Shown one piece after another: positions 512 through 43,067 of a DNA stretch of 52,691 bases (position 1 is the first letter of the stretch; every line of letters starts with the position of its first letter). Source of the stretch: a virus. The position numbers and the translations under genes were made by a program. Below the pieces are notes generated by a model that was not told where the DNA came from, did not search any database, and worked only from the letters and a program-made list of their open reading frames with translations. The stretch covers positions 1 through 52,691 of IMG/VR virus record IMGVR_UViG_3300010885_025066. The stretch is one strand, 5' to 3'.

Positions 512-515
512 AGAG

Positions 516-546
516 CAAAAATAAGGGGAATTTTTCAATTCCCCAA
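516..546 (-). promoter_or_regulatory. Bacteroidetes-type promoter with a hairpin as spacer
   Basis: On the minus strand a TTTG box (544-547) is followed after 20 nt by TATTTTTG (516-523), matching the TTTG-N20-TAnnTTTG Bacteroidetes promoter. The spacer is an inverted repeat with arms GGGGAATT and AATTCCCC around a GAAA loop, so the same bases can form a terminator-like hairpin for the gene ending at 558. The 38 nt at 513-550 are repeated identically at 4810-4847. Confidence 0.65.
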
Positions 547-557
547 ATTTTAATCAA

Positions 558-1037
558 TTATTTTTTTGTTTTAACACTATCGTATCCTAATTTCATAAAG
601 TACTCAAAGGTATGTCCAAGTCTTTCATATATGAAATTCCAAAGATCACTAAGTAAATCGGAAAATATCCATACTAATAATGATATTGGCCAGATAAACC
701 ACCATCTAAATACATGATTTTTTAAATACCAAACATCAAACTTATTACCTTTGATTGCCATTTCTCTTCCATAGAAGAAAACCCTTACAATCGTAAATAA
801 TAGTCCAACACCTAGATAACCTAAAACACTTGCCCATGAGATAAACTTCATTACTGGTACATTACCCCAATAGTAGTTTAATACTAAGAAGGTCACAACA
901 CCAATAAAAGCAATACCACCTTGTTCTTCAACTTCGGATGCAAATAGTGCGATTAATAGTACCACCAATAGTACTGCCATCCAAAAAAAACTACCAAACA
1001 ATGTCAATGCGGTTAAACCACCAAATAAACTTACCAT
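558..1037 (-). CDS. Multi-pass membrane protein, unknown function
   Basis: A 159-residue protein with several hydrophobic stretches: about residues 8-33, 39-57, 64-88 and 110-130. It starts MVSLFGGLTALTLFGSFFW and ends in a charged tail with LGYDSVKTKK. The first segment could be an uncleaved signal anchor. Nothing in it matches a family I recognise, and no catalytic motif is visible. It is transcribed alone from a well-formed promoter at 1071-1101 and followed by the hairpin inside the promoter of the methyltransferase gene. It probably sits in the host inner membrane; a role in superinfection exclusion or lysis is possible but not shown by the sequence. Confidence 0.7.
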   Translation of the reverse strand: MVSLFGGLTALTLFGSFFWMAVLLVVLLIALFASEVEEQGGIAFIGVVTFLVLNYYWGNVPVMKFISWASVLGYLGVGLLFTIVRVFFYGREMAIKGNKFDVWYLKNHVFRWWFIWPISLLVWIFSDLLSDLWNFIYERLGHTFEYFMKLGYDSVKTKK

Positions 1038-1070
1038 ACTTTTCTTTTTTTAATTATTAATATTGAAATA

Positions 1071-1101
1071 CAAATATAAGATAAAAATTTTACATTACCA
1101 A
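1071..1101 (-). promoter_or_regulatory. Bacteroidetes-type promoter
   Basis: Minus-strand TTTG (1099-1102), 20 nt, then TATATTTG (1071-1078), 34 nt upstream of the ATG of the membrane-protein gene. This is one of the cleanest matches to TTTG-N19/20-TAnnTTTG in the window. Its -33 box lies next to the end of the small gene at 1104-1256. Confidence 0.65.
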
Positions 1102-1103
1102 AC

Positions 1104-1256
1104 TTATTTATTTAATAAATTTCTAAACCATTTTGATAAATGTTTCTTTTTAAAATCAGTTAATCTTTTAACCATTTTCCACCACCTTAATTTAATTGAT
1201 GTGTTAATTAAAAATGTTGTTAAATTAGTTAATCCAGAAAAAAATTTAAATTTCAT
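1104..1256 (-). CDS. Small basic protein, 50 aa
   Basis: A 50-codon reading frame whose ATG (1254-1256) overlaps the TGA stop of the upstream gene as ATGA, a strong sign of translational coupling. The product starts MKFKFFSGLTNLTTF and ends KWFRNLLNK. It is rich in Lys/Arg and aromatic residues and could form an amphipathic helix in its second half (RLTDFKKKHLSKWFRNLL). A 68-codon frame on the opposite strand over the same bases has no start context or promoter, so I prefer this reading. Function unknown. Confidence 0.55.
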   Translation of the reverse strand: MKFKFFSGLTNLTTFLINTSIKLRWWKMVKRLTDFKKKHLSKWFRNLLNK

Positions 1257-1585
1257 TTTTTTGATATAATGAATTGATTTATAGTGAATTTACTTTCATC
1301 AATGTTTTGTAATTCATCTTTTAATTGTTTTTTCATTCTCGATCTGGCAGATGATTTTTCTTGTTGCCTTTCTGCTCTTAATTCTTCACGATATTTTTTT
1401 GCTCTCTTACCATGAGGTAAACCAAATTTACCGATACCTTCCTGAGAAATATCGTTTTCAATATGTACTAATTCCTTTCTATCACCAGTTATCTCATTAG
1501 CATCTAATGATAATGGTTTCATCTTTCTAGATGGTTTAGTTGAGTTGTCTTTATAACTCTTTAAATCTTTATGTGTCTTTCCCAT
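1253..1585 (-). CDS. Hypothetical charged protein, 110 aa
   Basis: A soluble, strongly charged 110-residue protein (MGKTHKDLKSYKDNSTKPSR...). The central part, roughly residues 60-95, is dense in Lys, Arg, Glu and Gln (KRAKKYREELRAERQQEK) and probably forms a long helix or coiled coil. It lies 12 nt downstream of the UvdE gene and shares an ATGA overlap with the next small gene, so it is in the same operon. No family recognised. A nucleic-acid-binding or adaptor role is conceivable from composition only. Confidence 0.65.
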   Translation of the reverse strand: MGKTHKDLKSYKDNSTKPSRKMKPLSLDANEITGDRKELVHIENDISQEGIGKFGLPHGKRAKKYREELRAERQQEKSSARSRMKKQLKDELQNIDESKFTINQFIISKK

Positions 1586-1597
1586 TTAATCTTTTGT

Positions 1598-2527
1598 TTA
1601 TACGTGATTGAAATCTTTTATGTATTTTAATACCGCAATGTCTTTAGATTTTGCTTCAATTTCAATATCGAATGTTTCTCCAAATGTTTGGATTTCTTCA
1701 TATATAAAATCAGCATGTGCAGTTTTTACTACTTTGGTGTCCTCATGATGTTTTGATGATGACATATGTGTTAATGGTTTAACTGTCCATGTATTTAATG
1801 CTAATTTGAGTGCATCTTCAAGAGATTGATCTTGGAATCCAAAGTTAAAATGATGTTGGTCAAAAACAATAGGTATATTCGTATGTTTATAAACAAGATT
1901 ATGTAACATCATAACTGAGTATTGATTCGGTGAATCATCATTCTCTATTGTAAGTCTTGATTTACAAGAATCTGATAATAATTTAAAATTTTCTACAAAT
2001 CTACTAGCAGCTATTTCTCTTGTAGGTTTAGTGGTGTTGATGTGTATATTAATTGGATAATAGTGTGATTGATCTAATCCCATTAAGTCCATCAATTCAG
2101 CGTGTTGATTGAGTTCGTAGATAGTTTTTCTAACTACATTTTCATTTTCACTTGCAAGTACGTTAAACTGACCTGGATGATAACTAACTCTAATATCATT
2201 GTTTTTAATTTTATTACCAATTAATGTTAGATAAGATTTAATAACATTAAATTTTGGTAAGTCTTGAAATTTATATTCTGACATCCAAGGAAATGAATCA
2301 GATGATAAACGATAAACGAATATCTTCTTTTTAATGTTATAATCAAGTAATTTTAATGTGTCTTTTAAGTTCTCAATAACTATCTCTGAAACATATTCAA
2401 GACCCTTTTCTTGGAAAGTTTTTTTAACCATACCTCGGTTAACTGTAATGTAATCTTTTTTCTTTAGATTTTCATTACATCCGATAGATATACAACAATA
2501 ACCAATTCTATTTTTATTTTCACTCAT
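1598..2527 (-). CDS. uvdE: UV damage endonuclease, UvdE family
   Basis: 309 residues, about the length of bacterial UvdE. The protein carries the family's metal-binding TIM-barrel motifs in order: RIGYCCIS near the N-terminus, YRLSSDSFPW (about 72-81), RVSYHPGQFNVLAS (about 113-126), INIHI, LTIENDD (about 194-200), VFDQHH (about 222-227), HMSSSKHHEDTKV and EIEAKSKDIAVLK near the C-terminus. The His, Glu and Asp residues expected to bind the metal cluster are present. UvdE nicks DNA 5' to UV photoproducts, starting repair independent of nucleotide excision. It has its own promoter (2545-2575) and is first in an operon with two small unknown genes. Confidence 0.93.
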   Translation of the reverse strand: MSENKNRIGYCCISIGCNENLKKKDYITVNRGMVKKTFQEKGLEYVSEIVIENLKDTLKLLDYNIKKKIFVYRLSSDSFPWMSEYKFQDLPKFNVIKSYLTLIGNKIKNNDIRVSYHPGQFNVLASENENVVRKTIYELNQHAELMDLMGLDQSHYYPINIHINTTKPTREIAASRFVENFKLLSDSCKSRLTIENDDSPNQYSVMMLHNLVYKHTNIPIVFDQHHFNFGFQDQSLEDALKLALNTWTVKPLTHMSSSKHHEDTKVVKTAHADFIYEEIQTFGETFDIEIEAKSKDIAVLKYIKDFNHV

Positions 2528-2544
2528 AATATAAAAGTTTTGTG

Positions 2545-2575
2545 CAAAAATAAGGTGGATTTATCAATCCACCAA
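2545..2575 (-). promoter_or_regulatory. Promoter with terminator-like hairpin in its spacer
   Basis: Minus-strand TTTG at 2573-2576, a 20-nt spacer, then TATTTTTG at 2545-2552. The spacer contains arms GGTGGATT and AATCCACC around a GATA loop. It overlaps the stop codon region of the RNA ligase gene (stop 2564-2566), so it can act both as the 3' hairpin of that gene and as the promoter of uvdE. Same architecture as 516-546 and 4813-4843. Confidence 0.6.
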
Positions 2576-3214
2576 ATTTATCTTTGCTTGTTTCAATTCC
2601 AATTCGTATTCTTTTGGAGATTTATTTCTCAATCTATTAAACCAATCATCAGTTTTGATTTTACAATAATATAAATTATCGTTACCCTTTTTATTTGTGA
2701 TAAGTCCTTTTGCAATTATCCCCTCACTTAATCCAAATTCATTTGATTTAACACGTTTAATCAAATCCATATTTAGATTTCCATCATAAACTATTCTTGG
2801 TATTCCAATATTTCCGAAATCATTAATAAATTGTCTTGGTGGAACAAATCCCTTTTTATATTGAGAAATATCAAATAAAATAGTATCAAATGTGTCATTT
2901 TCAAAATCATGTTGTCCAAAACATGGTTTTGAACCAACAAATTCTGCAAAACAAACAAATGATTGAATATTTCTATATTCTTTTGATGTAAAAATTGAAC
3001 TCAGACTATCGTTATATTTTTCTTTGAATATTTTGACCGCCATACCAAATTGTTCACTATTTTCATCAATCATCACATTCCTAGTACCAAATTTATAAAA
3101 CCCTCTTTTTTTACTCCACTCAGAACGAATGTTTGAACCATCCAATTTATCAAATCCAATTACTGGTATGTTCCAATAATCCCCATAATATGGTATAGTG
3201 TTATAACTTTTCAT
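2564..3214 (-). CDS. RNA ligase (Rnl2/RNA_ligase family)
   Basis: 216 residues with nucleotidyltransferase motifs in order: motif I KLDGSN with the presumptive AMP-accepting Lys23, FGTRN (about 42-46), motif IIIa CFAEFVG (about 88-94), motif IV EGIIAKG (164-170) and motif V CKIKT (184-188). This is the adenylyltransferase core of the ATP-dependent RNA ligase family (T4 Rnl2-like). The protein is shorter than T4 Rnl2 and has only a short tail after motif V, so it probably lacks a C-terminal specificity domain. It lies in a minus-strand group with a CCA-adding-like enzyme gene, which suggests repair of cleaved tRNA; that role is inferred. Confidence 0.88.
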   Translation of the reverse strand: MKSYNTIPYYGDYWNIPVIGFDKLDGSNIRSEWSKKRGFYKFGTRNVMIDENSEQFGMAVKIFKEKYNDSLSSIFTSKEYRNIQSFVCFAEFVGSKPCFGQHDFENDTFDTILFDISQYKKGFVPPRQFINDFGNIGIPRIVYDGNLNMDLIKRVKSNEFGLSEGIIAKGLITNKKGNDNLYYCKIKTDDWFNRLRNKSPKEYELELKQAKINLVD

Positions 3215-3227
3215 TTAATTTTTTTAC

Positions 3228-3650
3228 TCATGTTCTATAAATTAATTTATTATTTTTATCATATATTGATATACAAGTTCCCTGACCAAATGTCCAAGCA
3301 AATGTAAAATCATTATACTTCATTAATAAACTTGAGAAATTTTTTGTTAAATCATCAACTGGGTTAACCTCATCTCCATGATGTTGTACAACATCTAATA
3401 CACCATACATTAAATTCCAAGGATGTGGTTGATAACCATTATTATGACATACATCATTCCATCTTTGGTCATGTTTATCAATTAATTTTAATAAGAAAGT
3501 TTCAAATGATTTTTCATCATTAAAGAATAAACGAGTACGTTTAATATTTCTTTCTTTTTTATCCTGAATATCTTTTAAAGATTTTCTTAAACGTTTAATA
3601 AATTCAGAATCTTCCAATTTATTTTTCAAATCATCTAACATTTTTTTCAT
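3228..3650 (-). CDS. Hypothetical protein, 140 aa
   Basis: I choose the ATG at 3648-3650, which follows the upstream stop (3652-3654) directly; a longer frame reaching 3674 would overlap that gene. The N-terminal 45 residues are Lys/Glu-rich and helical (MKKMLDDLKNKLED). A globular part follows, with RWNDVCHNNGYQPHPWNLMYGVLDVVQHHG and a final FTFAWTFGQGTCISIYD. The His- and Trp-rich middle (HPWNLM, VQHHGD) could bind a metal or ligand. I do not recognise the family. It lies in the operon between the CCA-like enzyme and the RNA ligase, so a link to RNA repair is possible. Confidence 0.7.
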   Translation of the reverse strand: MKKMLDDLKNKLEDSEFIKRLRKSLKDIQDKKERNIKRTRLFFNDEKSFETFLLKLIDKHDQRWNDVCHNNGYQPHPWNLMYGVLDVVQHHGDEVNPVDDLTKNFSSLLMKYNDFTFAWTFGQGTCISIYDKNNKLIYRT

Positions 3651-3651
3651 T

Positions 3652-4401
3652 TTATAATTTAAATGTAGGTTCAAGCCATAATGGATTATTATCTGCTTGT
3701 ACCCTTGTGAATATATAGTTTCTCAATGCAGGGAAATCACCCAAGTAATCCAATGTATCAATTGTACTATATTTTAAACACTTATACAACTCATCACGGA
3801 TTCTTTCACCTGATACCACACCCATTTTTTTTCTATAATCATATGTGATGATTGTTCTCATCATATCCTCTGGAATGATTAATCCTTTGGTTATAGAAAA
3901 TCTAATTGCTCTCAAAATTCTAAGAGGATCGTCATCAAATGTTATATTACAATCCAATGGTGTTCTAAGGATTCTATCTTTCAAATCTTTCTTACCATTA
4001 AAGAAGTCAATTATTGTTCCATCCTCATCTTTTGCCAATGCATTCAATGTAAAATCTCGTCTTTCAAGGTCATCATATAATGTACCAGGTTCAACGATTG
4101 GTGTTCTTGTACCAGGTATATAACCAATCTCTTTCCTGGCCATAACCACGTCTGCAACACCTTCATATTTGTGATCTTTTGGAAACTTTGCTCTGATTGT
4201 ATAACAATCATGAGTTATCAAAAAGATTTCAAACTTTTCATTTGTTAAATGTTCTATCAAAACATCAAACATTTCTGTTGCAGTTTTAAACTTGGATAAT
4301 AACTCTTCATTTGGAACTGCAACATAATCAACATCCTTAGATTTTAATCCAAGAAGTTCATCCCTCACTTTTCCACCAACCTCATACATTTTAAATAACA
4401 T
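3652..4401 (-). CDS. tRNA nucleotidyltransferase / poly(A) polymerase family (CCA-adding-like)
   Basis: 249 residues from the ATG at 4399-4401, chosen because it follows the upstream stop at 4412. Class II nucleotidyltransferase motifs are clear: YEVGGKVRDELLG near the N-terminus, DVDYVAV (catalytic Asp pair), RRDFTLNALA in the middle, then DDPLRILRAIRF and a helix with SGERIRDEL. Bacterial CCA-adding enzymes are usually 380-450 residues, so the C-terminal body and tail domains are reduced, as in other phage members. Likely reaction: adding C or A residues to tRNA 3' ends. Next to the RNA ligase it would make a tRNA-repair pair (inference). CCA-adding and A-adding forms cannot be separated by eye. 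Confidence 0.87.
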   Translation of the reverse strand: MLFKMYEVGGKVRDELLGLKSKDVDYVAVPNEELLSKFKTATEMFDVLIEHLTNEKFEIFLITHDCYTIRAKFPKDHKYEGVADVVMARKEIGYIPGTRTPIVEPGTLYDDLERRDFTLNALAKDEDGTIIDFFNGKKDLKDRILRTPLDCNITFDDDPLRILRAIRFSITKGLIIPEDMMRTIITYDYRKKMGVVSGERIRDELYKCLKYSTIDTLDYLGDFPALRNYIFTRVQADNNPLWLEPTFKL

Positions 4402-4411
4402 ATTTTTATTT

Positions 4412-4795
4412 TTAATCTTTAAATTCATTAATCAAATCAAAAAAGAATTTAGGTATTGATAATTTAATGTTTTCTTCTTTTTCAATTTCAACTAATCTGT
4501 TTATTTGAGTCTCAGATAACCAATTCAAACTTCTTTGTGGATATATAGCACTAAGAAAAGTTTTATTCTTTTCATTCGACATTTTTGAACTAAACTTTAA
4601 ACAAGAACCAAAAATAGGATGTAATCGTTCTATATTTGAATTTTTAACCTGTGTATCAAGATATAGATATATCTTACAGACATTCGGGTTTTTTAAATTG
4701 TTTTCCCGATTATTCAATTCAACTTTACAAACTTTTGGATTACCCAAATAATCAAAAATATTTTTTCTGTCAATAATTTTTGTTATACGAATCAT
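4412..4795 (-). CDS. Hypothetical protein, 127 aa
   Basis: Soluble protein beginning MIRITKIIDRKNIFDYLGNP. It contains NVCKIYLYLDTQ and a C-terminal helix LSETQINRLVEIEKEEN before IPKFFFDLINEFKD. Two cysteines occur as KVCKVEL and NVCKIYL in a repeated V-C-K setting. First gene after the promoter at 4813-4843, so it leads the operon containing the CCA-like enzyme, the 140-aa protein and the RNA ligase. Family not recognised. Confidence 0.65.
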   Translation of the reverse strand: MIRITKIIDRKNIFDYLGNPKVCKVELNNRENNLKNPNVCKIYLYLDTQVKNSNIERLHPIFGSCLKFSSKMSNEKNKTFLSAIYPQRSLNWLSETQINRLVEIEKEENIKLSIPKFFFDLINEFKD

Positions 4796-4812
4796 ACTTG
4801 TTATTTATGGAG

Positions 4813-4843
4813 CAAAAATAAGGGGAATTTTTCAATTCCCCAA
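4813..4843 (-). promoter_or_regulatory. Promoter with hairpin spacer, second copy of a 38-bp repeat
   Basis: Minus-strand TTTG at 4841-4844, a 20-nt spacer, then TATTTTTG at 4813-4820. Arms GGGGAATT and AATTCCCC with loop GAAA occupy the spacer. The stretch 4810-4847 is identical to 513-550. It sits between the stop of the NAMPT gene (4857) and the start of the next operon (4795). Confidence 0.65.
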
Positions 4844-4856
4844 ATTTATTTTTTAA

Positions 4857-6425
4857 TTAAAGATATTGAGACAATATTTCTCTTATTTCAGATAATGAAG
4901 TTTCTTTAACCAAAACACCATCAAAAATTGTCTCTAATTCACCAGTTCCTTCTTTTTCCCAAGAAACATTATCTTGAAGATAATATTCACCATTTTCATT
5001 TTTACCGACATACAAAAGACCTCTTGCAGATTTCTTTGTACCATCATCAGTAATTGGGTCTTTAAATATTACCCTTCCGATTACTTCAGGAACATCCATA
5101 GTTCCAACTTCACCAATTGATTTACCAATATTTGTTGTTAATTCAACATAAGTTGCCTTAACTGCTCCACCTTGGTTATCTCTGGTTGCGTAACCCATTG
5201 AATATGAACCAACACCCAATACAATGTTTGTTGATGCAAATCCTTTTGCTTCCAATCTTCTACAAATTTCATTTGCACGTTCCAATGTTATTGAATCTCC
5301 ATAGATTACTCCAATATGAGGATCTAAAACCTTATATCCTTGGTCATTTACAGTACCACCGAATACATCCCAAAGTAATTCGATTACACCTTTTTGTTCA
5401 GGTTCTAAATCACTTTTACCATGTCTTTGATTGTGAAGTAACGCGTCTTCTCTATTGTTTTCATAGGAATCTGTGTTTTCTTTAATTGTACCACAAATAA
5501 TATCTACTGGGTCACCACTATCAGGTCTGATTACCAACTTACCATCTCTTGAAAGAATTAGGTCTTTAAGTGTTGTAACAAATTCTGTACATACTTTCCA
5601 AAGGTCATAAGAATCACTTACCAAACTAACAATCCCTGTTGGATATTGTGTTAAAATTCTTTTGAAGGATTCCAATTCATTTTCTTTACCATATGATGTA
5701 CAAACCGCGTGCTCACTTGCTGGAACACTAAATCCAACGTTTTCTGAATTATAATAATATTGTGACGCTTGTAATGCAGGGATTGTATCAGTACCATAGA
5801 AACTAGTCAAAAAACCTAAACCTGAAGATATTGCACTTTCAGGATGTTGCATCCCTCTGAAACTAAAATCATGACCTTGGAAATTAACAAACCCAAGATT
5901 ATTTTTATCGGTTTTCTTTGCCCAATCAGTTAATATTTTTTTATAACCAAATGCCAATGATGCGGAATGTACTGGTTTCCATATCAAACTTGAAATCAAT
6001 GTTTCAAGGAAGTTTGGTAACCAAAAGAACTCAGGGTGAGTATTATATATTGTTAATATTGGTATTTTTTCACCAACAACAGTACCTTCTTTCAAGGTCT
6101 TAACACGAATAGGTAAATAACCCAAATCATGAAGTTTTTCAAAGTGTGTAACATCATAGTCACAACCCAAATAACTTGAAAGGTATTTCTTAGCTTCACC
6201 AATAACTTGTTCTTTTGGTTTGTTAAAGAAGTTCTTTCTATAAATTTCATCAATATACTTCATTGTATACTGAGCACCAAACACAACTATTTGTTTTGCG
6301 TTTTCTGGCATATATTTCACATTTCTTAATGTGAAATTAGAATAAACACAAGTTGTATTCTCCGGGTACATTTTGTGATGAGAGGTTTTATAACCATCTG
6401 TTAATAACAAGGGATTCTTTTCCAT
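4857..6425 (-). CDS. nadV: Nicotinamide phosphoribosyltransferase (NAMPT/NadV)
   Basis: 522 residues, close to the usual length of NAMPT. Family segments are easily aligned by eye with the human enzyme: LLTDGYKTSHHKMYP near the N-terminus, HDFSFRGM (185-192), GTDTIPALQAS, SVPASEHAV (233-241, with the catalytic His239), VSDSYDLW (269-276) and RPDSGDP (300-306). The enzyme joins nicotinamide and PRPP to give NMN, the first step of NAD+ salvage. In phages it is part of NAD+-restoring pathways that counter NAD-depleting defences, normally together with an NMN adenylyltransferase, which I do not see in this window. Transcribed from its own promoter at 6459-6489. Confidence 0.95.
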   Translation of the reverse strand: MEKNPLLLTDGYKTSHHKMYPENTTCVYSNFTLRNVKYMPENAKQIVVFGAQYTMKYIDEIYRKNFFNKPKEQVIGEAKKYLSSYLGCDYDVTHFEKLHDLGYLPIRVKTLKEGTVVGEKIPILTIYNTHPEFFWLPNFLETLISSLIWKPVHSASLAFGYKKILTDWAKKTDKNNLGFVNFQGHDFSFRGMQHPESAISSGLGFLTSFYGTDTIPALQASQYYYNSENVGFSVPASEHAVCTSYGKENELESFKRILTQYPTGIVSLVSDSYDLWKVCTEFVTTLKDLILSRDGKLVIRPDSGDPVDIICGTIKENTDSYENNREDALLHNQRHGKSDLEPEQKGVIELLWDVFGGTVNDQGYKVLDPHIGVIYGDSITLERANEICRRLEAKGFASTNIVLGVGSYSMGYATRDNQGGAVKATYVELTTNIGKSIGEVGTMDVPEVIGRVIFKDPITDDGTKKSARGLLYVGKNENGEYYLQDNVSWEKEGTGELETIFDGVLVKETSLSEIREILSQYL

Positions 6426-6498: not shown

Positions 6499-7266
6499 TT
6501 AATATGACATGAATGAAAAATGTTTTTGTTTTGCCGGTTCAACACTATATTGAACATGTTTGACGTTATCATCCTTATCTGTTTCTTCAATAATGAATGT
6601 ATCATTAGATAACACAGTTAAGACTTCACCAAGATATACCTCATTTACATAGAAATCATCACCAATTGAATCCATTGTTATTTTTCTTGGTGACATACTT
6701 GCATCACCTCTATATAGTTCAATAGTATTATTTGGTTGTTTGGTGATAAACACATTAAATTTATCATCCAACATTTTAATATTGAATACATCTTTAAAGT
6801 TCAATGGATCTTCATTGTGAATATTAACTTCATCAATTACCGCATTGACAATATCAACAGATATCGTTTCCAATGTTGAAATGAAATCAACTGTACATTC
6901 TTTAAGATCTTTGTATACCAATCTATCTTCAACAATTTCTGTAATAACAGATAATGTTAAATCCTTATATGTCTTCAAATATCTGATACGACCTGGACGT
7001 TGTAATAGGTTTGAATTAACATATAAATTGTTTGTTGTGAATAAGAACACCTTACGATAACCATTATCCAATGCACCATCCATGATGGTTAGGATTTCTT
7101 CATCCTTATTTTCTCTTTGATTAAACACCTTTTCAAATTCGTCAACAAAAATAATAACATTTTGTTGAATATCATTAATGAAATTTGGTATTCCATTAAA
7201 TCCTCTATGGATAATGATAACTGGTAATTCTAAAAGATTACATATTTGTTTTGCAGTAACTGTTTT
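6499..7266 (-). CDS. AAA+ ATPase, 3' exon (Walker B to C-terminus)
   Basis: Joined to the exon at 8446-8709, this gives a 343-residue protein. The frame is open from 7266, giving K-T-V-T-A-K-Q directly after the P-loop glycine. Walker B is NVIIFVDEFEK (about 124-134). A sensor-1 segment VFLFTTNN and an arginine-finger-like RPGRIRYLK follow. These are AAA+ features in the right order and spacing. Without splicing the 3' part has no proper start; the GTG at 7126-7128 would lose Walker B. Substrate unknown; phage AAA+ proteins of this size act as remodellers in replication, packaging or defence. The C-terminal 90 residues look like a small beta-rich domain. Confidence 0.8.
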   Translation of the reverse strand, partial: KTVTAKQICNLLELPVIIIHRGFNGIPNFINDIQQNVIIFVDEFEKVFNQRENKDEEILTIMDGALDNGYRKVFLFTTNNLYVNSNLLQRPGRIRYLKTYKDLTLSVITEIVEDRLVYKDLKECTVDFISTLETISVDIVNAVIDEVNIHNEDPLNFKDVFNIKMLDDKFNVFITKQPNNTIELYRGDASMSPRKITMDSIGDDFYVNEVYLGEVLTVLSNDTFIIEETDKDDNVKHVQYSVEPAKQKHFSFMSY

Positions 7267-8445
7267 CAGGTTTGTTATCCCATTGGCTTTTTATCCGATG
7301 GTTCTATAACTTTCTTTTCGTTATAGCTCAGCATATATTTTCATCTTCAACTTTATTTGGTAAGATGTCGAGTACTCGTGGAAGGATTATATTTATTCAC
7401 CTTCTATGCGTTACACTGTCTTTATACCTTTCGAAATTATAAAGATTAGCACGGTATTCCCAATTTCAGAGTTCACCGTTTTTACTCGATAATAATTCAG
7501 TTGATTTCTCAACTGAACGGCAATAATACAAATAGTTTTCTCTTTTACGTTCCAAAAAAATATTGGAACTTTTAAATATATAATCAGCGAAAATCTTAGA
7601 TTTTTTAATACCTAAACTAAAGTAAAAAATTTCAGGTGAATGTCGTTTGTCATGTAAAATTTTTGTTTTTATACCGGAATGTATAATAACATTTTCTAAC
7701 ATGTTTTTTGTACCTAATAATGTGATACTCAATTTTTTTACTGAGGTCTTATTTGTTAAGATACAACCATCACCATCAAAATATCCTCTAATAAAATGAG
7801 ATATTAAAAACTCCGGAACTTGATTAAACGTTGGAAATTTTACTGTTAATGATTTTTTAGGTGTTATACCTAATTCAATCAATCTTTGTTTAAGATGTTT
7901 GTTAACAATTGAAAATCTACATCTAAATGAATCGAGTTTGATATTATCTTCATATTTTAAAAATTTAGCAAACTTTTTTAAATGTTCTAAATCTTTTAAT
8001 CCTAACGATAATTCAAAATCATTTCTATTTGAATGAATATAACCATCAGCGTAAATAAAACCTAACCAATATGCCTTTTCTTCAGTATCAATTTTATCAA
8101 ATATTTTATCATCAAATTTAGTTATATTTTGATAATTTATAATTTCAATACCACTTTTTTTAAAGTGTTTTGATAATGTTGTAATAGTAACATTTGTTAA
8201 TTTACTAATTTGAGATAACGATAAACCATCTTTATATAATTTAATGGCATCATTAATATCCCAACTAATAATATTTTGTCTATTGATTACATCAACTCCG
8301 GATTTTTTTAAATTTCTAAGAACTTCGTGAATACTAATGGATAGTATCCTTGCGATTTTAGTCGCACTTAAACCTGATTCATACATTTCTTTCATATTTA
8401 TATTTTACTATAAATATAAGAGAAAACTAAAAAGTATTAGTATTT
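7267..8445 (-). mobile_element. Group I-like intron in the P-loop of an AAA+ ATPase gene
   Basis: 1179 nt that separate two halves of one reading frame. The 5' exon ends in GGT (codon for Gly88 of GxxGTGKT) and the intron begins AAATACTAATAC at 8445. The 3' end reads AACCTG at 7267, so the exon ends in U and the intron in G, as group I introns require. Joining restores GVKGTGKTVTAKQ. The endonuclease gene begins about 50 nt from the 5' end. The last 200 nt (7267-7465) are non-coding and contain GUGCUAAUC, resembling conserved core sequence of phage group I introns. I could not draw a convincing P1 pairing by hand. Confidence 0.75.
7466..8395 (-). CDS. LAGLIDADG homing endonuclease inside the intron
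   Basis: 309 residues. Residues 1-40 and 45-85 form two similar helix-turn-helix-like units, each with a G-L-S-x-x-x-I-x-x-L core (GLSATKIARIL and GLSLSQISKLT). Two LAGLIDADG motifs follow: AYWLGFIYADGY (108-119) and FIRGYFDGDGCI (201-212). Both Asp residues of the two active sites are kept, so the enzyme may be active as a monomer. Its likely target is the uninterrupted P-loop region of the same ATPase gene. It is preceded by an AT-rich leader with ATATTTAT-type sequence and could have its own late promoter. Confidence 0.92.
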   Translation of the reverse strand: MKEMYESGLSATKIARILSISIHEVLRNLKKSGVDVINRQNIISWDINDAIKLYKDGLSLSQISKLTNVTITTLSKHFKKSGIEIINYQNITKFDDKIFDKIDTEEKAYWLGFIYADGYIHSNRNDFELSLGLKDLEHLKKFAKFLKYEDNIKLDSFRCRFSIVNKHLKQRLIELGITPKKSLTVKFPTFNQVPEFLISHFIRGYFDGDGCILTNKTSVKKLSITLLGTKNMLENVIIHSGIKTKILHDKRHSPEIFYFSLGIKKSKIFADYIFKSSNIFLERKRENYLYYCRSVEKSTELLSSKNGEL

Positions 8446-8731: not shown

Positions 8732-8762
8732 CAAATATAGGTAATAAATTTTAATTACCCAA
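8732..8762 (-). promoter_or_regulatory. Promoter with inverted repeat in spacer
   Basis: Minus-strand TTTG (8760-8763), 20 nt, TATATTTG (8732-8739). The spacer begins and ends with GGTAAT and ATTACC, another inverted repeat between the boxes. It drives the AAA+ ATPase gene and overlaps the end of the gene at 8751. Confidence 0.6.
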
Positions 8763-8999
8763 ATCTTTTTTTCTTTTTAATTTAAATGGTTTTCTTACTT
8801 CCTTACCATTAACCAAATTGTTTTCTTTTCGATAAAATTGTTCTTGTATCAATGTCGTATACGCACCTCTAAAATACTTTTTTTTTGATAAAAAATTTAT
8901 AATATTAGACAAATGACTATCTGTAAGATCTTTAATAAGAATACGTTTACCTTCTTGGGGTGTCCAATAATTAATTTCTCTTAATTCAGAATGTTCCAT
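8751..8999 (-). CDS. Hypothetical protein, 82 aa
   Basis: Short soluble protein starting MEHSELREINYWTPQEGKR. The N-terminal half is mixed; residues 30-60 include LSNIINFLSKKKYFRGAYT. The tail is very basic (KPFKLKRKKDLGN), which suggests nucleic-acid binding. Its start lies 3 nt after the stop of the deoxyribosyltransferase-like gene, so it is in that operon. The stop is inside the promoter of the AAA+ gene. Family not recognised. Confidence 0.6.
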   Translation of the reverse strand: MEHSELREINYWTPQEGKRILIKDLTDSHLSNIINFLSKKKYFRGAYTTLIQEQFYRKENNLVNGKEVRKPFKLKRKKDLGN

Positions 9000-10386: not shown

Positions 10387-12282
10387 TTATTTTTTAACTT
10401 CTATTACCTCTTCTGTTGGTTTTTGGACACTCATCATCTCCATTAACTTTAAACCCAACAAACCATCCATTGGTGAACCACTATTACCACCTGAAATAAG
10501 AACTTCAGGTATAATTTTGATTTTGTTCTTACCAATTTCTTCTGTAATTTTAAACTTACCAAAGTTATCAGAACCCATTGCTTCAACTTGAAGTTTGTAT
10601 GCCTCAGCGGTTGCCTTACCAACACTTTCAATAGCAGTTGCTTCCGCTTTACCTACCTGTTCTTTTTGATATGCCTCAGCCTCAGCCATCAACTTCTTCT
10701 GTTTAGATTCCGCTTCCGCCATCAATACCTTTGCTTTGGATTGTGCGTTTGCATTTATCTCCACTGCTTTCGCTTCACCCTCAGAACGTTTAACCGCTGC
10801 TTCCGCTTGACGTTGAGAGATTTCAACTGATTGTTGTGCGGATACCATTTGACCTTGCATATCAGCCAATGCCTTTGCAGATTCCAATGTTTTACGTTGA
10901 TCTTGTGCTTGTTGTTGAACATTGAAGGTCTCCTTTTCTTCCTGAGCAATCTTTCTATCAGTTAGAGTCTTCATCAAAGATTCTGGTGGTGTAATATCAC
11001 CAATCAATGTATCAACAGCGTGTACATTATAATCTTCCAATACTTTACTGATAGACATTTTTGCTGCGTCTTGTCTAGATTGACGAGTCGATAGGAATGA
11101 AATAACATCAGAATCTTGTGCCGAGTTACGGAAATAGTTACCGATAGTTGGTTCAAGTACTTGTGATACCAAGTTCTGCATCGAACCGAAACGTGCAATT
11201 ACTTTTGGTGCGTCAGGTGCTGGAATGTGAATAATTTGTGAAACGTCCAAATTGAATGGGAAACCATCTTTAGAACGTACAGTAATCGTACTCAATCCTT
11301 TATCCAAATTATGTGACTCTGTACGAGCGTTTGCCCAATTCAGTACAAGGTTGGTTGTAGGTACAATTTCAATCTTTGTTGTATAGGTATTGATTGCGTA
11401 TTTACCTGGGTCTAATGGTGTTATACATACACCTTTTTCACCTTTCTTAACAATGTTACCATGTTTGAAACTATCACCTGTTAAATCCTTTCCTTCATTA
11501 CCTACATATGAAATTACAACACCCACATGACCGATAGGAATTTGTGTCATTGCAATTTTTTCAATCTCAACAGCCCAAGGATTAAGGGAATAGTTACCTG
11601 CTTGAATAACTTGTTCCTGTAAACCTCTTTGACCACCATTTGCCAAGAATTTATCAAAATCCTGATAGTTTTGGTGACCATCTACGATTTTACCTGCGAT
11701 GTTACCTGTATCCAATGGTGTACCATCTAAAGCGGTTATAATACCAATCATACCATCTTCAATGTTTATAATATCAGCACCATACACCTCAAATAATTTG
11801 GTATTAATACGATATGTACCATTGTTCAAATAACCAACTTGTTTACCTCTTTGACCACCATTAGTTAAGAACGCACCGGCATCTTGATAATTATCAGATT
11901 CAACATGTCGTGCTAAGATAGCACCTGTTGGTAGTTGACTACCATCCTTTGCCGATACAAGACCAATTTTTCCTTTAGGTATTACTGTAAAGTCAGCAAG
12001 TTCAATAATATATTGCCAAGGAAAGTAACCCCAACCTAAGAAACCCGGAGCCAATGTTTTCGCCTGATAACCAGGTTCACCATTTAAGGCGATAATCTTA
12101 CCATCCGGTAACGATTTGTTGGTACCAAACAAGACAAACTTCTTTGTAACCAAACCAATTTTATCTTCTGGTATAATAACCATACCGAAAAGAACTCTTA
12201 ACGTCCATTTATAACAAACGATCGCTAACAATGGGAAAATAAATCCCCAATAACTCGAAATAAAACTTAACACTTTAACCAT
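10387..12282 (-). CDS. SPFH/Band 7 (flotillin-like) membrane protein
   Basis: 631 residues. A membrane anchor occupies about residues 8-35 (SFISSYWGFIFPLLAIVCY). An SPFH-type region follows. It contains beta-rich modules starting IGLV/IGII, two of which share FLTNGGQRGKQ (138-148) and FLANGGQRGLQ (212-222), indicating internal duplication. Residues about 430-590 form a long helical Ala/Glu/Gln/Lys-rich segment (KALADMQGQMVSAQQ, AEAESKQKKLMAEAEAYQKEQ), as in flotillins. Bacterial SPFH proteins build large membrane-bound cages that organise lipid domains or control membrane proteases. A phage copy could alter the host envelope or shield against membrane-acting defence; this is inference. Monocistronic, with promoter 12333-12363 and terminator 10351-10372. 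Confidence 0.88.
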   Translation of the reverse strand: MVKVLSFISSYWGFIFPLLAIVCYKWTLRVLFGMVIIPEDKIGLVTKKFVLFGTNKSLPDGKIIALNGEPGYQAKTLAPGFLGWGYFPWQYIIELADFTVIPKGKIGLVSAKDGSQLPTGAILARHVESDNYQDAGAFLTNGGQRGKQVGYLNNGTYRINTKLFEVYGADIINIEDGMIGIITALDGTPLDTGNIAGKIVDGHQNYQDFDKFLANGGQRGLQEQVIQAGNYSLNPWAVEIEKIAMTQIPIGHVGVVISYVGNEGKDLTGDSFKHGNIVKKGEKGVCITPLDPGKYAINTYTTKIEIVPTTNLVLNWANARTESHNLDKGLSTITVRSKDGFPFNLDVSQIIHIPAPDAPKVIARFGSMQNLVSQVLEPTIGNYFRNSAQDSDVISFLSTRQSRQDAAKMSISKVLEDYNVHAVDTLIGDITPPESLMKTLTDRKIAQEEKETFNVQQQAQDQRKTLESAKALADMQGQMVSAQQSVEISQRQAEAAVKRSEGEAKAVEINANAQSKAKVLMAEAESKQKKLMAEAEAYQKEQVGKAEATAIESVGKATAEAYKLQVEAMGSDNFGKFKITEEIGKNKIKIIPEVLISGGNSGSPMDGLLGLKLMEMMSVQKPTEEVIEVKK

Positions 12283-12332: not shown

Positions 12333-12363
12333 CAAATATAAGGTAAATAAAATTACCCACCAA
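12333..12363 (-). promoter_or_regulatory. Promoter with inverted repeat in spacer
   Basis: Minus-strand TTTG (12361-12364), 20 nt, TATATTTG (12333-12340), upstream of the SPFH gene. The spacer holds GGTAA and TTACC arms, the same hairpin-in-spacer design as several other promoters here. Confidence 0.62.
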
Positions 12364-12370
12364 ATTATTT

Positions 12371-14840: not shown

Positions 14841-14871
14841 CAAATATATGAAAAAAAATTCAATAAAACAA
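14841..14871 (-). promoter_or_regulatory. Bacteroidetes-type promoter
   Basis: Minus-strand TTTG (14869-14872), 20 nt, TATATTTG (14841-14848), immediately upstream of the nucleotidase gene (start 14836, nearly leaderless). The -33 box abuts the terminator at 14872-14899. Confidence 0.6.
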
Positions 14872-14899
14872 AAAACCCACATAAAATTATGTGGGTTTT
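14872..14899 (-). terminator. Rho-independent terminator, probably bidirectional
   Basis: A stem of about 13 bp (AAAACCCACATAA with its complement) closed by a 2-4 nt loop, flanked by A and T runs on both sides. It ends the transcript of the gene at 14919-15188 and is joined to the next promoter. Confidence 0.85.
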
Positions 14900-16724: not shown

Positions 16725-16754
16725 CAAATATAGGAGGAAATATTTAAATGGCAA
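16725..16754 (-). promoter_or_regulatory. Bacteroidetes-type promoter
   Basis: Minus-strand TTTG box (about 16752-16755), 19 nt, TATATTTG (16725-16732). Its -33 box abuts the T-run of the terminator at 16760-16777. Confidence 0.55.
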
Positions 16755-16759
16755 AAAAA

Positions 16760-16777
16760 ATCCTGATTTCTCAGGAT
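16760..16777 (-). terminator. Rho-independent terminator
   Basis: Minus-strand arms ATCCTGA and TCAGGAT with a GAAA loop, followed by eight T. Ends the transcript of the gene at 16785-18083. Confidence 0.85.
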
Positions 16778-16784
16778 ATTTTTT

Positions 16785-18083
16785 TTATTTTTTTCTCATA
16801 ACTTCTTTTATAACATTTTCTATCGCTTTACTAACTATACTTTCATGAAGTCGTGGTACTCTCTCAACGTCTGATATACCATAGTTCGCAACATTTAATA
16901 TTTCACTTACTGGGTAATCTTCAATTTCTGTTGATATGTCCCCCAAAGTAGCGACAAGTGATGATACTATTGATGGGTTGTCCATTACTGTATATGAATC
17001 TGAAAAATCATTTTTACCAGGAGGATAATCATAACTAGTTGTATTTGTCGCAACAAAATCTTTCAATAGTTGCATACTACCTTCAATAGAATCTTCTGTT
17101 GGTTTTTTTCTTGCAAATAAAATTGAAAATTTAATTTCCCAAGAATATGTTTTATCTAAATTATTTTTACCATGTATAGCCAAGTTAGACATTATTGTTA
17201 CATCTAAATTTTCAGGTGCGTGACGATATTTTTCTAATTTATATATTGGTGTTAAACCCACATATTTCGTTCTATTCTTTTTTGTAGGGTCATAGTTACT
17301 ATATTTTTCGTTATATAATCTTGCCATAGGGTAACTTTCTCTATATGCCAGATCTTCCGGTAAATCATCTTCTGTTGCCCTTTCTCCTGATGCCTTTTTA
17401 AAATCATTAGCACTTCTATAAGAACTTAATGAATGTGATTCTAAATTAATTTCATCATTATTTACTTTATTATTTAAATAACGATTTGTATATAATTCAT
17501 CATCAAGATGAAGTAGAGGTAATGACAAATATTCAAACGTCCCCCCCAATTTTCCATCATAATTAAAATATTTTTTAACTATTGGGTTAAATCTTCTTCT
17601 AATACTTTCTGTTGCTGAATAATTTTCACCAGAATGTTGATATGTCTTTCTTGTATTTTCGATACTTTCACCACCTTCTAATGGTACAATTATTCTACCC
17701 GCCTTTTGATAAGGCCAGTTATATGGTAAACTGTCTTCTGTTAAATAAAAACCACCATCACCTTCGAATTCTTCTTTTAATTTTTCTAATAAATCACGAT
17801 GTGTTTCTTTAAATTCTTCAAGATTTATCCCTTTAGTAAAAATAATTCTTTTAAGGGGAGTATCTTCAGGATTTTCTGGATTATCTAATAAATCCCAACC
17901 AATATGTGCGTTTTGTTTTTCTTTAGTTTGTTGTGTTCCTTTACCTTTAGTAAATTTTTTTTTCATTTCAGGATCAAAAATTCTTCTTCCACCTAATGGA
18001 AAATTTGACCATTGACCCATCTCATCCAATTCATTCTCTTCTTGGATTATTTTTAATAAATTTTTTTTTGTGATTTCTTTCAT
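16785..18083 (-). CDS. Large hypothetical protein, 432 aa, possible virion protein
   Basis: Begins MKEITKKNLLKIIQEENELD, a helical leader like those of the neighbouring genes at 14919 and 18112. The body is acidic and polar, with LGGRRIFDPEMKKKFTKGKG near the start, LTEDSLPYNWPYQKAGRIIVP in the middle (about 118-138), and a helical end (VSKAIENVIKEVMRKK). No signal peptide, membrane segment or known enzyme motif. It follows the lysin gene by 29 nt and shares its ATATTTAT-type leader, so it may be a late protein. Family not recognised. Confidence 0.68.
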   Translation of the reverse strand: MKEITKKNLLKIIQEENELDEMGQWSNFPLGGRRIFDPEMKKKFTKGKGTQQTKEKQNAHIGWDLLDNPENPEDTPLKRIIFTKGINLEEFKETHRDLLEKLKEEFEGDGGFYLTEDSLPYNWPYQKAGRIIVPLEGGESIENTRKTYQHSGENYSATESIRRRFNPIVKKYFNYDGKLGGTFEYLSLPLLHLDDELYTNRYLNNKVNNDEINLESHSLSSYRSANDFKKASGERATEDDLPEDLAYRESYPMARLYNEKYSNYDPTKKNRTKYVGLTPIYKLEKYRHAPENLDVTIMSNLAIHGKNNLDKTYSWEIKFSILFARKKPTEDSIEGSMQLLKDFVATNTTSYDYPPGKNDFSDSYTVMDNPSIVSSLVATLGDISTEIEDYPVSEILNVANYGISDVERVPRLHESIVSKAIENVIKEVMRKK

Positions 18084-25239: not shown

Positions 25240-26043
25240 TTAATAATTCTTCCATAATGTTTCAATTTTCGTTTTTTTATTGAAATTACCATCAATTGTT
25301 TTAACCTCAAAGTTTAATTTTATAAATCCATTATCAGTTAATTTATTATATAATTCACAATCATAACCACTAATAATGATTTTAGATTTACTTTCAATTA
25401 CAGTATTTAAAAACTCAATATGTCCATTTCTATCCATATCAACTTTATATCTAGCAGACGATCTAGTTGATTGTTCATATGGTGGGTCCAAATATAATAA
25501 ATTATTTGGACCGTCATATTTTTTAATAAGTTTAATACCATCTGTATTTGACACAATTACTCTAGATAATCTATCATGTAATTCCGGTAATCTATCTATA
25601 CATGATAAGAAATCCGATACCGCTTTACTCATACCTCTACGAATACTTGAATTCATTGAGAATCCACCGATACCATTATGTGATGTCCTATTAACATAAA
25701 AGAAATAGAACGCTCTGGTGATTATATCCAAGTCATCAAATTTCAATTTATCTTTAAAGTCCTTTCTTAAATCCTCAGAATAGATTGTTAAATCACATTT
25801 TTGTTTGAATAATTCAAACATATCTTTGTCAGATATTACTTTATATAATGAATAAACATTTTGTTCCAAATCATTATATACTTCAATTTTGGATGGTTCT
25901 TTTTTAAGACCAATACTAAAAGAACCTCCATATGCCTCAACATATGTATCATATTCACTATTTAACGGGAAATGTTGAATTATGTTGTTTGCCATGTTAA
26001 ATTTACCTCCATAATATCTAATTGGTGGGTTTATACTTTTCAT
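25240..26043 (-). CDS. dam: Dam-type (D12 class) adenine-N6 DNA methyltransferase
   Basis: 267 residues with the D12-class motifs: RYYGGKF (9-15, SAM binding), VEAYGGSFS (35-43), a long helical target-recognition region with FYVNRTSHNGIGGF, and LDPPYEQ (185-191, catalytic). The length and order match Dam enzymes, which methylate adenine (GATC in the best-known cases). A phage copy may protect phage DNA from restriction or direct packaging. The specificity cannot be read from sequence alone. The 3' end meets a bidirectional terminator. Confidence 0.92.
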   Translation of the reverse strand: MKSINPPIRYYGGKFNMANNIIQHFPLNSEYDTYVEAYGGSFSIGLKKEPSKIEVYNDLEQNVYSLYKVISDKDMFELFKQKCDLTIYSEDLRKDFKDKLKFDDLDIITRAFYFFYVNRTSHNGIGGFSMNSSIRRGMSKAVSDFLSCIDRLPELHDRLSRVIVSNTDGIKLIKKYDGPNNLLYLDPPYEQSTRSSARYKVDMDRNGHIEFLNTVIESKSKIIISGYDCELYNKLTDNGFIKLNFEVKTIDGNFNKKTKIETLWKNY

Positions 26044-27008: not shown

Positions 27009-27418
27009 TACTTTTTAATTAAAATTATATCATAAAATAAACTGAATATATAATTTCTTGTAATACCTAATATTAATAGATAAGATAAAAGAAATAATAT
27101 TCCATAATTAAATGTTATAACACCTGCTAATACAATTGCAAGTGCATTAAATATTTCTCTTATCATTTTCAAGAAATGCCATGCGTCTGTTAATTGTACT
27201 GGTTTAGTAACAAATATAGTAAAAATTTTCCATTTTACCAAACCGTTCTTAGGATTTCCATCAACATATTTATTCTTCCAACTAAATAATGGGTTCCAAA
27301 ATAATTGATTTTTATCTTTAAAAATACTGATATTATAGTGGTGGGACAACGTGTCCATAATTGCATCACATATACCACTTAGACAATATATGATGATTGG
27401 GATGATCGTGTAATACAT
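27008..27418 (-). CDS. Membrane protein, 136 aa, conserved in phages
   Basis: Starts MYYTIIPIIIYCLSGICDAI with a first membrane segment. Two more hydrophobic stretches lie near residues 88-105 and 107-130. Between them lie AIMDTLSHHYNISIF, WNPLFSWKNKY and LTDAWHFLKMI, with several His, Asp and Trp that recall a family of phage membrane proteins I have seen without assigned function. Located in a run of overlapping small genes. Confidence 0.65.
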   Translation of the reverse strand: MYYTIIPIIIYCLSGICDAIMDTLSHHYNISIFKDKNQLFWNPLFSWKNKYVDGNPKNGLVKWKIFTIFVTKPVQLTDAWHFLKMIREIFNALAIVLAGVITFNYGILFLLSYLLILGITRNYIFSLFYDIILIKK

Positions 27419-33085: not shown

Positions 33086-33362
33086 TTTCTAATTTTTCAA
33101 TTTGTTCTATTGCTTCTGTAATATCTATTGTTCCTACTATATAAAACTTTGTTTCGTAATCTACTTTTTGTGGTATCCAAGGTTCACCATTTGGTAATGT
33201 ACACTTTCCTGTTTCCCAATTCATAAAAACTAAACCAACATTATTTCTATCTTTATGTTCTTCTATTGGTCCTCTACTTCTCATTACAGAACCTTTATGA
33301 TATTTGGAGTAATACACTGGTATTAATCTCCATTCTCCAATTTTAGTTAAATCATCATTCAT
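33078..33362 (-). CDS. Hypothetical protein, 94 aa
   Basis: From ATG 33360-33362. Starts MNDDLTKIGEWRLIPVYYSK; middle GLVFMNWETGKCTLPNGEPW; ends with an acidic helix (DITEAIEQIEKLENG). Looks like a small beta-rich fold. Stop overlaps the start of the ABC-type gene by 8 nt. Confidence 0.6.
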   Translation of the reverse strand: MNDDLTKIGEWRLIPVYYSKYHKGSVMRSRGPIEEHKDRNNVGLVFMNWETGKCTLPNGEPWIPQKVDYETKFYIVGTIDITEAIEQIEKLENG

Positions 33363-41964: not shown

Positions 41965-43067
41965 ATATAATTATACCCATGGCAGGATTAGGTAGTAGAT
42001 TTAAATCAGAAGGGTTTATTTTACCTAAACCATTAATAGAAGTTGGCGGAAAAACATTAATTGAACATTCAATAGAATCGTTAAATATTCCTGGACAATA
42101 TATTTTTATAACCAGAAAATACGATGATGTTAATCATAATTTATTATTATCTAAAAAATTAAAAGAAGTAATACCAGAGTCTGTAGAAATATTAATAGAA
42201 TCACCAACTAAAGGTTCAGTTGAAACATGTTTATATGCGAAAGATTTTATTAATAATGACGAACCATTAATTATTACTAATTGTGATCAAAGATTAGAAT
42301 GGAATAGTGAAGATTTTTTAGATTTTATAAATAATAATAATAATAGTGATGGAATCGTTGTAACATATGACTCCGACAATCCTAAAAATAGTTTTGTAAA
42401 GTTAAATGATAATGGTGATGTTATTACAATCACAGAAAAAAATCCAATATCAAGAAATTCATTAATTGGATTACACTATTGGAAAAATGGTAAATTATTT
42501 ATTGATTCGTCAGAAAAATTAATGGGTGAATTTGAAAAAAATGGTAGACCTGAATGTTATATTTCTGAAACATATAATTTTTTAATAGAAAATAATATGA
42601 AAATTAAATCATATGAAATACCTGTTAATGAATATATTTCATTAGGTACACCATACGATTTAAGTGTTTATCAAGCAAAAATAAAAGAGTTTTATACAGA
42701 TAAACCAAAAACAATATTTTGTGATATTGATGGTACAATACTTCGTCATGTTCATAAATTTTCAGATGTTTGTACAACTGATCCAGTTTTATTAAATGGT
42801 GTATTAAAAAAATTTAATGAGTGGGATTCGCAAGGACATAAAATAATTTTATGTACTGCCAGAAAAGAATCTGCCAGAGAAATAACTGAAAAACATTTAA
42901 AATCATTAGGTATTTGTTGGGATTATTTGATAATGGGGGTTTCTAGTGGTGTAAGAGTTTTAATAAATGATAAATTAAATAAAACAGACAGTAATAGAAG
43001 TGTTTCTGTAAACGTTATAACAAATGAAGGATTTGAAAAAATAGATTGGAAAAAATATAATTTATAA
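41961..43067 (+). CDS. Fused sugar-phosphate nucleotidyltransferase (N) and HAD phosphatase (C)
   Basis: 368 residues, ATGA overlap with the previous gene. Residues 1-235: MNIIIPMAGLGSRFKSEGFI, PKPLIEVGGKTLIEH, KGSVETCLYA, TNCDQRLEW, SLGTPYDLSVY, a nucleotidyltransferase related to the one in the previous gene. Residues about 245-345: TIFCDIDGTILRH, ILCTARKES, GVRVLINDK, a small HAD phosphatase of a different type from that of the previous gene. Probably makes or modifies a nucleotide-activated sugar or polyol phosphate. Pathway uncertain. Confidence 0.87.
   Translation: MNIIIPMAGLGSRFKSEGFILPKPLIEVGGKTLIEHSIESLNIPGQYIFITRKYDDVNHNLLLSKKLKEVIPESVEILIESPTKGSVETCLYAKDFINNDEPLIITNCDQRLEWNSEDFLDFINNNNNSDGIVVTYDSDNPKNSFVKLNDNGDVITITEKNPISRNSLIGLHYWKNGKLFIDSSEKLMGEFEKNGRPECYISETYNFLIENNMKIKSYEIPVNEYISLGTPYDLSVYQAKIKEFYTDKPKTIFCDIDGTILRHVHKFSDVCTTDPVLLNGVLKKFNEWDSQGHKIILCTARKESAREITEKHLKSLGICWDYLIMGVSSGVRVLINDKLNKTDSNRSVSVNVITNEGFEKIDWKKYNL

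Follow-up and report, generated by a model that had tools for sequence, protein, structure and literature searches.

Three short intergenic elements on the minus strand of the IMG/VR virus record IMGVR_UViG_3300010885_025066 (52,691 nucleotides (nt), 27% G+C; this whole 52.7-kb stretch is referred to as the window) are very probably composite transcription terminators and promoters, with both predicted activities sharing one 32-nt module. The transcript of a polymerase arriving from the upstream gene would fold into an 8-base-pair (bp) GNRA-capped hairpin followed by UUAUnUUU, and would end there. The same DNA would form the spacer of a primary-sigma promoter, whose boxes TTTG (-33) and TATnTTTG (-7) flank the hairpin with a fixed spacing of 20 nt; the U-tract would also be the -7 box, and the transcript of the next gene would start a few nucleotides later. 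An original prediction made on this DNA had proposed that a single element terminates the transcript of one gene and initiates that of the next, with its T-rich flank serving at the same time as the -7 box, and all the sequence tests reported below agree with this proposal. At the level of sequence, we demonstrate paired arms, a fixed geometry, pairing of the -7 box with upstream bases and a co-directional placement between genes.

Candidate composite elements in the window

The motif TTTG-N18-21-TAnnTTTG was found 19 times in the window (4.1 expected from shuffles). Five TTTG-N20-TAnnTTTG spacers contain an inverted repeat (516-547, 2545-2576, 4813-4844, 8732-8763 and 12333-12364, all on the minus strand); the original prediction had listed them, with end coordinates one base short, as a single class, and that class holds for the first three. 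Element 1 (513-550, minus strand) has its -33 TTTG at 547-544, the hairpin GGGGAATT-GAAA-AATTCCCC at 544-525 and the -7 box TATTTTTG at 523-516. Element 2 (2545-2576, minus strand) has its -33 TTTG at 2576-2573, the hairpin GGTGGATT-GATA-AATCCACC at 2573-2554 and the -7 box TATTTTTG at 2552-2545. Element 3 (4810-4847, minus strand; promoter 4844-4813, hairpin GGGGAATT-GAAA-AATTCCCC at 4841-4822) is a 38-nt copy of element 1, and this identity, already pointed out in the original prediction, is exact and maximal at 38 nt. All three have perfect stems of eight contiguous pairs and a GAAA-type loop that fill the promoter spacer, with folding energies of -12 kcal/mol bare and -14.5 to -21 kcal/mol with flanks; just 0.02-0.06% of shuffled spacers match their strength.

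The predicted placement just after one stop and just before the next start was confirmed for these three elements, with stop-to-element and element-to-start distances of 10/4, 0/17 and 12/17 nt, respectively. At element 2, gene end, putative terminator and promoter overlap, because the upstream RNA-ligase-like open reading frame (ORF) has its stop codon within the GATA loop of the hairpin (as TGATAA).

The other two sites are Bacteroidota-type promoters on the minus strand with weak spacer hairpins, AT-rich or G-T-rich, which 0.5-1.6% of shuffled spacers equal. The spacer of 8732-8763 is an AT-rich palindrome (GGTAATaa/ttATTACC; 1.6% of shuffled spacers equal), and its orthologue in a related phage (G001) has lost pairs; that of 12333-12364 contains three G-T pairs. 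These sites are not clearly of the same class, so their membership was set aside and they were not used as support. A promoter-like match with an inverted repeat at 27211, which sits inside a coding gene, was dropped.

Distribution of the module

Dozens of unrelated contigs of Bacteroidota phages, as well as cultured phages, carry the module TTTGG-N6-GAAA-N6-CCTTATnTTTG. An IMG/VR scan with TTTGG-N16-CCTTATWTTTG, in which inner pairing was not required, gave at least 122 sites; all six inner pairs were present in 25 of the matches listed, whereas pairing halves of different sites predicts about 1.2% (1-2 sites). With a fixed GAAA loop and the T-type box, again without a pairing requirement, 28 stretches were obtained from viral contigs, every one fully paired. 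The genome-wide excess of palindromic spacers, suggested as a check in the original prediction, does exist, in a discrete class of sites, because 68 of the 629 promoter-like sites pooled from phage DNA have strong spacer hairpins, where swapping of spacer halves among the sites predicts about 6.

Fully paired elements were collected from 80 loci, several of them on one contig. Among the matches listed, phages carry from 2 to about 14 copies, with about 14 elements in 40 kb of IMGVR_UViG_3300016474_000543 and many in each of 3300042544_002123 and 3300042466_001456. The cultured carriers are the Parabacteroides merdae phages PM708P4 and PM116P4 and the Elizabethkingia phage TCUEAP1; in PM116P4, elements lie immediately upstream of 33817, 31415 and 26575, and in TCUEAP1 the element is near 11340. 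BLAST searches of cultured phages returned only Parabacteroides merdae phages, TCUEAP1 and, as unfolded hits, two megaphage records lacking annotation. Across 84,980 bacteria and archaea (one genome per species), just 11 fully paired sites were found, so the module is mainly a phage feature: six lie on two short contigs of one Bacteroidales metagenome-assembled genome (MAG), one contig having an endolysin-like gene, four lie at one junction, 5' of an ABC-transporter-like gene, in four Bacteroidales MAGs, and one is in Prevotella.

Three observations were made in cellular assemblies. The chromosomal module that precedes the ABC-transporter-like gene, GGCGGATT-GAAA-AATCCGCC, is conserved in the four Bacteroidales MAGs. 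Two contigs of the Bacteroidales MAG KTt_bin-0938 carry approximately one promoter per 400 bp, seven with spacer hairpins, among short ORFs of which one is endolysin-like; these are probably phage contigs binned with the MAG. At seven Chitinophagales loci, a conserved promoter (TTTGGGAAATTGAAAATACCCCCTTATTTTTG) with incomplete pairing stands directly 5' of an apparent tRNA gene start.

Pairing and covariation of the hairpin arms

For the analysis of covariation, 33 distinct elements were picked by loop and flanks, with pairing not a criterion. In this set, 93.9% of cells were paired (66.5% when shuffled, 46-57% with the partner slid), and the covariation score was 0.712 against 0.203 for shuffles, none of 500 reaching the observed value. 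Cells changed on both sides numbered 72 (24 shuffled) and affected all six of the six variable pairs, and the covariation was destroyed by sliding the partner one to three columns. Arm sequences vary even within one phage with pairing maintained. The compensating changes on which the original prediction had based its claim of selection for structure are thus borne out by elements that were not selected for pairing.

Promoter boxes and their attachment to the hairpin

The consensus of the Bacteroides primary sigma factor (sigma-ABfr) is TTTG at -33 and TAnnTTTG at -7 (PMC7366714). The elements have both boxes at a fixed spacing upstream of genes, as primary-sigma promoters of Bacteroidota do, and the spacing is that of plain promoters of the same phages: the spacer measures 20 nt in 60 of 61 hairpin sites, which is the modal spacing of plain promoters. 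They differ from those promoters in that the spacer is a paired hairpin and in the wording of the -7 box, which is TATTTTTG or TATCTTTG in hairpin elements and mostly TATATTTG in plain promoters. The ratio of TATTTTTG to TATATTTG is 23:16 in hairpin elements and 16:221 in plain promoters (Fisher 2e-13), the variants of the hairpin elements being richer in pyrimidine.

The elements could also be plain intrinsic (Rho-independent) terminators whose resemblance to a promoter reflects A/T-rich flanks. They do share with such terminators an 8-bp, G+C-bearing stem, a GNRA loop and a directly attached U-rich tail downstream of a co-directional stop, features that suffice for a terminator, and box-less terminators occur in the same genomes. 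Hairpins found without any box criterion nevertheless have the boxes: among 65 fully paired sites from hairpin-only scans, 47 carry both exactly, 4 only the -33 box (3 of them with a near-miss -7 box), 14 neither and none the -7 box alone. The TTTG that abuts the stem is useless for termination, yet scans without the -33 box recovered TTT directly before GG in 83 of 88 fully paired sites, among the matches listed, and directly before the stem in 26 of 29 from held-out loci. The U-tract, moreover, is interrupted by A and by a final G at box positions, as would follow from the tail also being the -7 box, and the modal promoter spacing would have to be fortuitous. An explanation by terminators alone is therefore highly improbable. 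As a separate observation, TTAGG replaces TTTGG before the stem at five loci (AAAGATTAGG...CCTTATCTTT), where one pair is gained and the -33 consensus is broken.

An outer helix that involves the -7 box

Pairing extends beyond the stem. In 89 of 96 fully paired elements (47 shuffled), the variable position of TATnTTTG can pair with the nucleotide located 2 nt 5' of the -33 TTTG, and this holds for C-G (60/62), T-A (23/25) and A-T (6/9) pairs. In a first set of plain promoters with a C box, the partner position was G in 5 of 31, with no link seen; among all promoters with 20-nt spacing, a C box had a partner G in 80 of 92 hairpin and 20 of 152 plain cases (Fisher 7e-32). The outer pair was present in 33 of 40 hairpin-bearing and 3 of 83 plain promoters from held-out loci, and the same difference was seen where hairpin and plain promoters coexist in single phages. 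The folded RNA can be written AAAnAU-UU-GG-N6-GAAA-N6-CC-UU-AUn'UUU, which forms a nearly continuous helix containing tandem U-U mismatches. This outer helix, which was not part of the original prediction, is new here and is confined to hairpin-bearing promoters.

Placement of the elements and further alternatives

The median distance from a co-directional stop to the hairpin element that follows is 12 nt, and that from the element to the next start is 23 nt. Measured from the -33 box, hairpin 3' ends cluster at +23/+24 (43 sites), and the antisense strand gave 1 of 329. Of 254 co-directional junctions, 42 have a terminator-like hairpin, compared with 1 of 44 divergent ones (p=0.0095).

Repressors classically bind palindromes located between promoter boxes, and the repetition of the elements within one phage would also suit operators, that is, DNA sites for a dimeric phage or host regulator with no RNA hairpin. 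A protein would read fixed bases, however, and the arms vary while pairing is kept. The GAAA loop is present on the sense strand only, the pairing reaches a base of the -7 box, and the hairpin is nearly absent from divergent junctions, where an operator would be equally useful. Mismatches were also informative: G-U exceeded A-C by 25:5, against a share of 0.62 under a composition-matched null (p=0.011), which replaced a test on a 50% null that had given p=2e-4. This excess favours sense-strand RNA over a DNA palindrome, the test being moderately strong, and together with the placement it fits an RNA terminator rather than an operator; we consider operators highly improbable.

A very small chance is likewise given to hairpins that act on the upstream mRNA as an RNase stop or cleavage site, protecting its 3' end or processing it, with termination brought about by something else. 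With the outer helix, the 3' end would be base-paired, and the tails are U-poor in some phages; most elements, in contrast, have a U-rich tail attached immediately to the stem, which is the arrangement of intrinsic terminators.

Promoters of the N4 virion polymerase and of the F plasmid (Frpo) are formed by hairpins, and both helices of the module would pair as DNA too. It is nonetheless scarcely credible that the elements are promoters only, acting through a cruciform or single-stranded DNA hairpin, because the boxes are those of the host primary sigma factor at their double-stranded spacing (PMC7366714), a folded strand would present no linear promoter with -33 and -7 on opposite arms, and the sense-strand G-U bias and co-directional placement would be left unexplained.

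Several points weigh against composite terminator-promoters. The tail is GTATATTTG in Parabacteroides phages, a poor U-tract, and TATACTACAC in the T4-type phage RB49, which makes termination less obvious in both. The module was absent from the cultured Bacteroides phages checked (crAss001, BT24 and BT498P1), so it is not universal. Some site sets were gathered with patterns containing parts of the module, related phages are not independent in the counts, and the G-U test has the limited strength given above. Gene calls on contigs were simple ORF calls.

Comparison with known systems

The closest layout is that of the promoter-early stem-loop (PeSL) of T4-type phages of E. coli, described in outline as a composite promoter-terminator motif that mediates shuffling (Arbiol et al. 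2010, doi 10.1093/gbe/evq006; Comeau et al.). The layout was checked on the RB49 genome itself, in three stretches covering 124 kb of 164 kb. Nine strong sites were found in which a hairpin fills the sigma-70 spacer, on the pattern of TTGACA-GGGGATC...GATCCCC-TATACT (example TTGACAggggatcggtgatccccTATACT): 33305-33335 (between two genes), 25308-25338, 58386-58416, 43001-43031, 158939-158969, 134519-134549, 123264-123294, 122851-122881 and 121706-121736. Several have the common arms GGGGATC/GATCCCC, and terminators just upstream of promoters are also present. The PeSL stem-loop is reported to terminate transcription, and recombination is said to proceed through mini-circles.

Like PeSLs, the module composes a promoter and a stem-loop into one short intergenic cassette; on the evidence of the RB49 sites the likeness lies in a hairpin that fills the spacer, and near-identical copies are repeated at co-directional junctions, with gene content changing beside one of them. 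It differs in its Bacteroidota host and in its boxes, which are TTTG at -33 and TAnnTTTG at -7 instead of the -35 and -10 of a sigma-70 type early promoter. The hairpin sequences are unrelated, the U-rich tail of the module is merged with the -7 box, and the outer helix was not seen in RB49 sites. The module is thus apparently the Bacteroidota counterpart of PeSL and not a member by descent, and the two are probably convergent, because there is no sequence homology. A PHROGs scan of window proteins (part of the ORFs, in a record that may be a fragment) gave no T4 core protein. An IMG/VR search for hairpins in the spacer of degenerate sigma-70 boxes found nothing; the pattern was probably too strict, because sites of the RB49 type exist.

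A further-reaching proposal, which we regard as rather doubtful, is that the module is a terminate-and-restart device by which recycled polymerases transcribe the phage genes one at a time, and which arose independently in Bacteroidota and T4-type phages. Restart in place is possible because E. coli RNA polymerase has been seen in vitro to restart at a nearby promoter after RNA release; the authors expect this recycling to depend on the distance between terminator and promoter (PMC6978380). Recycling is a mechanism and not an element, and in the module that distance would be nil. If the RNA were released 7-8 nt past the stem, the polymerase would be within a few bases of the new start and would cover what becomes the -7 bubble. 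Selection would then act on the outer helix between the -7 box and the bases preceding the -33 box, since pulling the U-tract from the RNA-DNA hybrid would free the old transcript and hand the polymerase to the new promoter.

Genes beside the elements and other overlap registers

Three neighbouring genes are on the minus strand: a UvdE-type UV endonuclease gene (1598-2527) downstream of element 2, the RNA-ligase-like gene (2564-3214), whose end abuts element 2, and a nicotinamide phosphoribosyltransferase gene (4857-6425), which ends 12 nt before element 3. Blocks aligned between G001 and the window are 74-99% identical, mostly 81-99%. G001 carries elements 2 and 3 at the corresponding junctions, and base changes in its orthologue of element 2 stay paired (G-U). 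The RNA-ligase-like gene has no counterpart at the same junction of G001, and the gene boundary coincides with element 2; judged from the alignment, it is a gene gained or lost there, in the single clear case of an insertion or deletion. Copies are near-identical inside one phage and divergent between phages, which suggests that the module spreads within genomes. Since, in addition, gene content varies beside one element, the module probably acts as an insulated cassette that spreads and exchanges genes, as judged from that one clear case.

Elsewhere in the window, a LAGLIDADG/HTH gene (7466-8395; region 7266-8443) is missing from the otherwise collinear G001 and is probably a free-standing homing endonuclease insertion.

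Other registers of overlap were also observed. On the minus strand at 14841-14899, the T-tract of a strong terminator hairpin (14899-14872) runs into the -33 TTTG of the promoter 14872-14841, and at 16725-16777, also on the minus strand, the T-tract of a terminator hairpin (16777-16760) is the -33 TTTG of the promoter 16755-16725. This second register, in which the T-tract of the upstream terminator becomes the -33 TTTG of the next promoter, recurs in other phage loci; in a third, seen at several loci, the hairpin spans the -33 box. A protein search with the product of 16785-18083 gave no cultured relative.

Significance

Phages of Bacteroidota are abundant in the gut and in water, and the separation of their transcripts is largely undescribed in the literature searched. 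The presence of the fused module in dozens of unrelated phages, with a parallel built from other boxes in T4-type phages, suggests convergence on fused gene insulators. The outer helix that ties the -7 box to the bases preceding the -33 box is a specific and unexpected constraint. The module may provide a sequence rule for annotating transcription units in Bacteroidota phages and, for genetic work in Bacteroidota, an insulated promoter part of very small size, and it would offer a natural test bed for whether a terminated RNA polymerase restarts in place.

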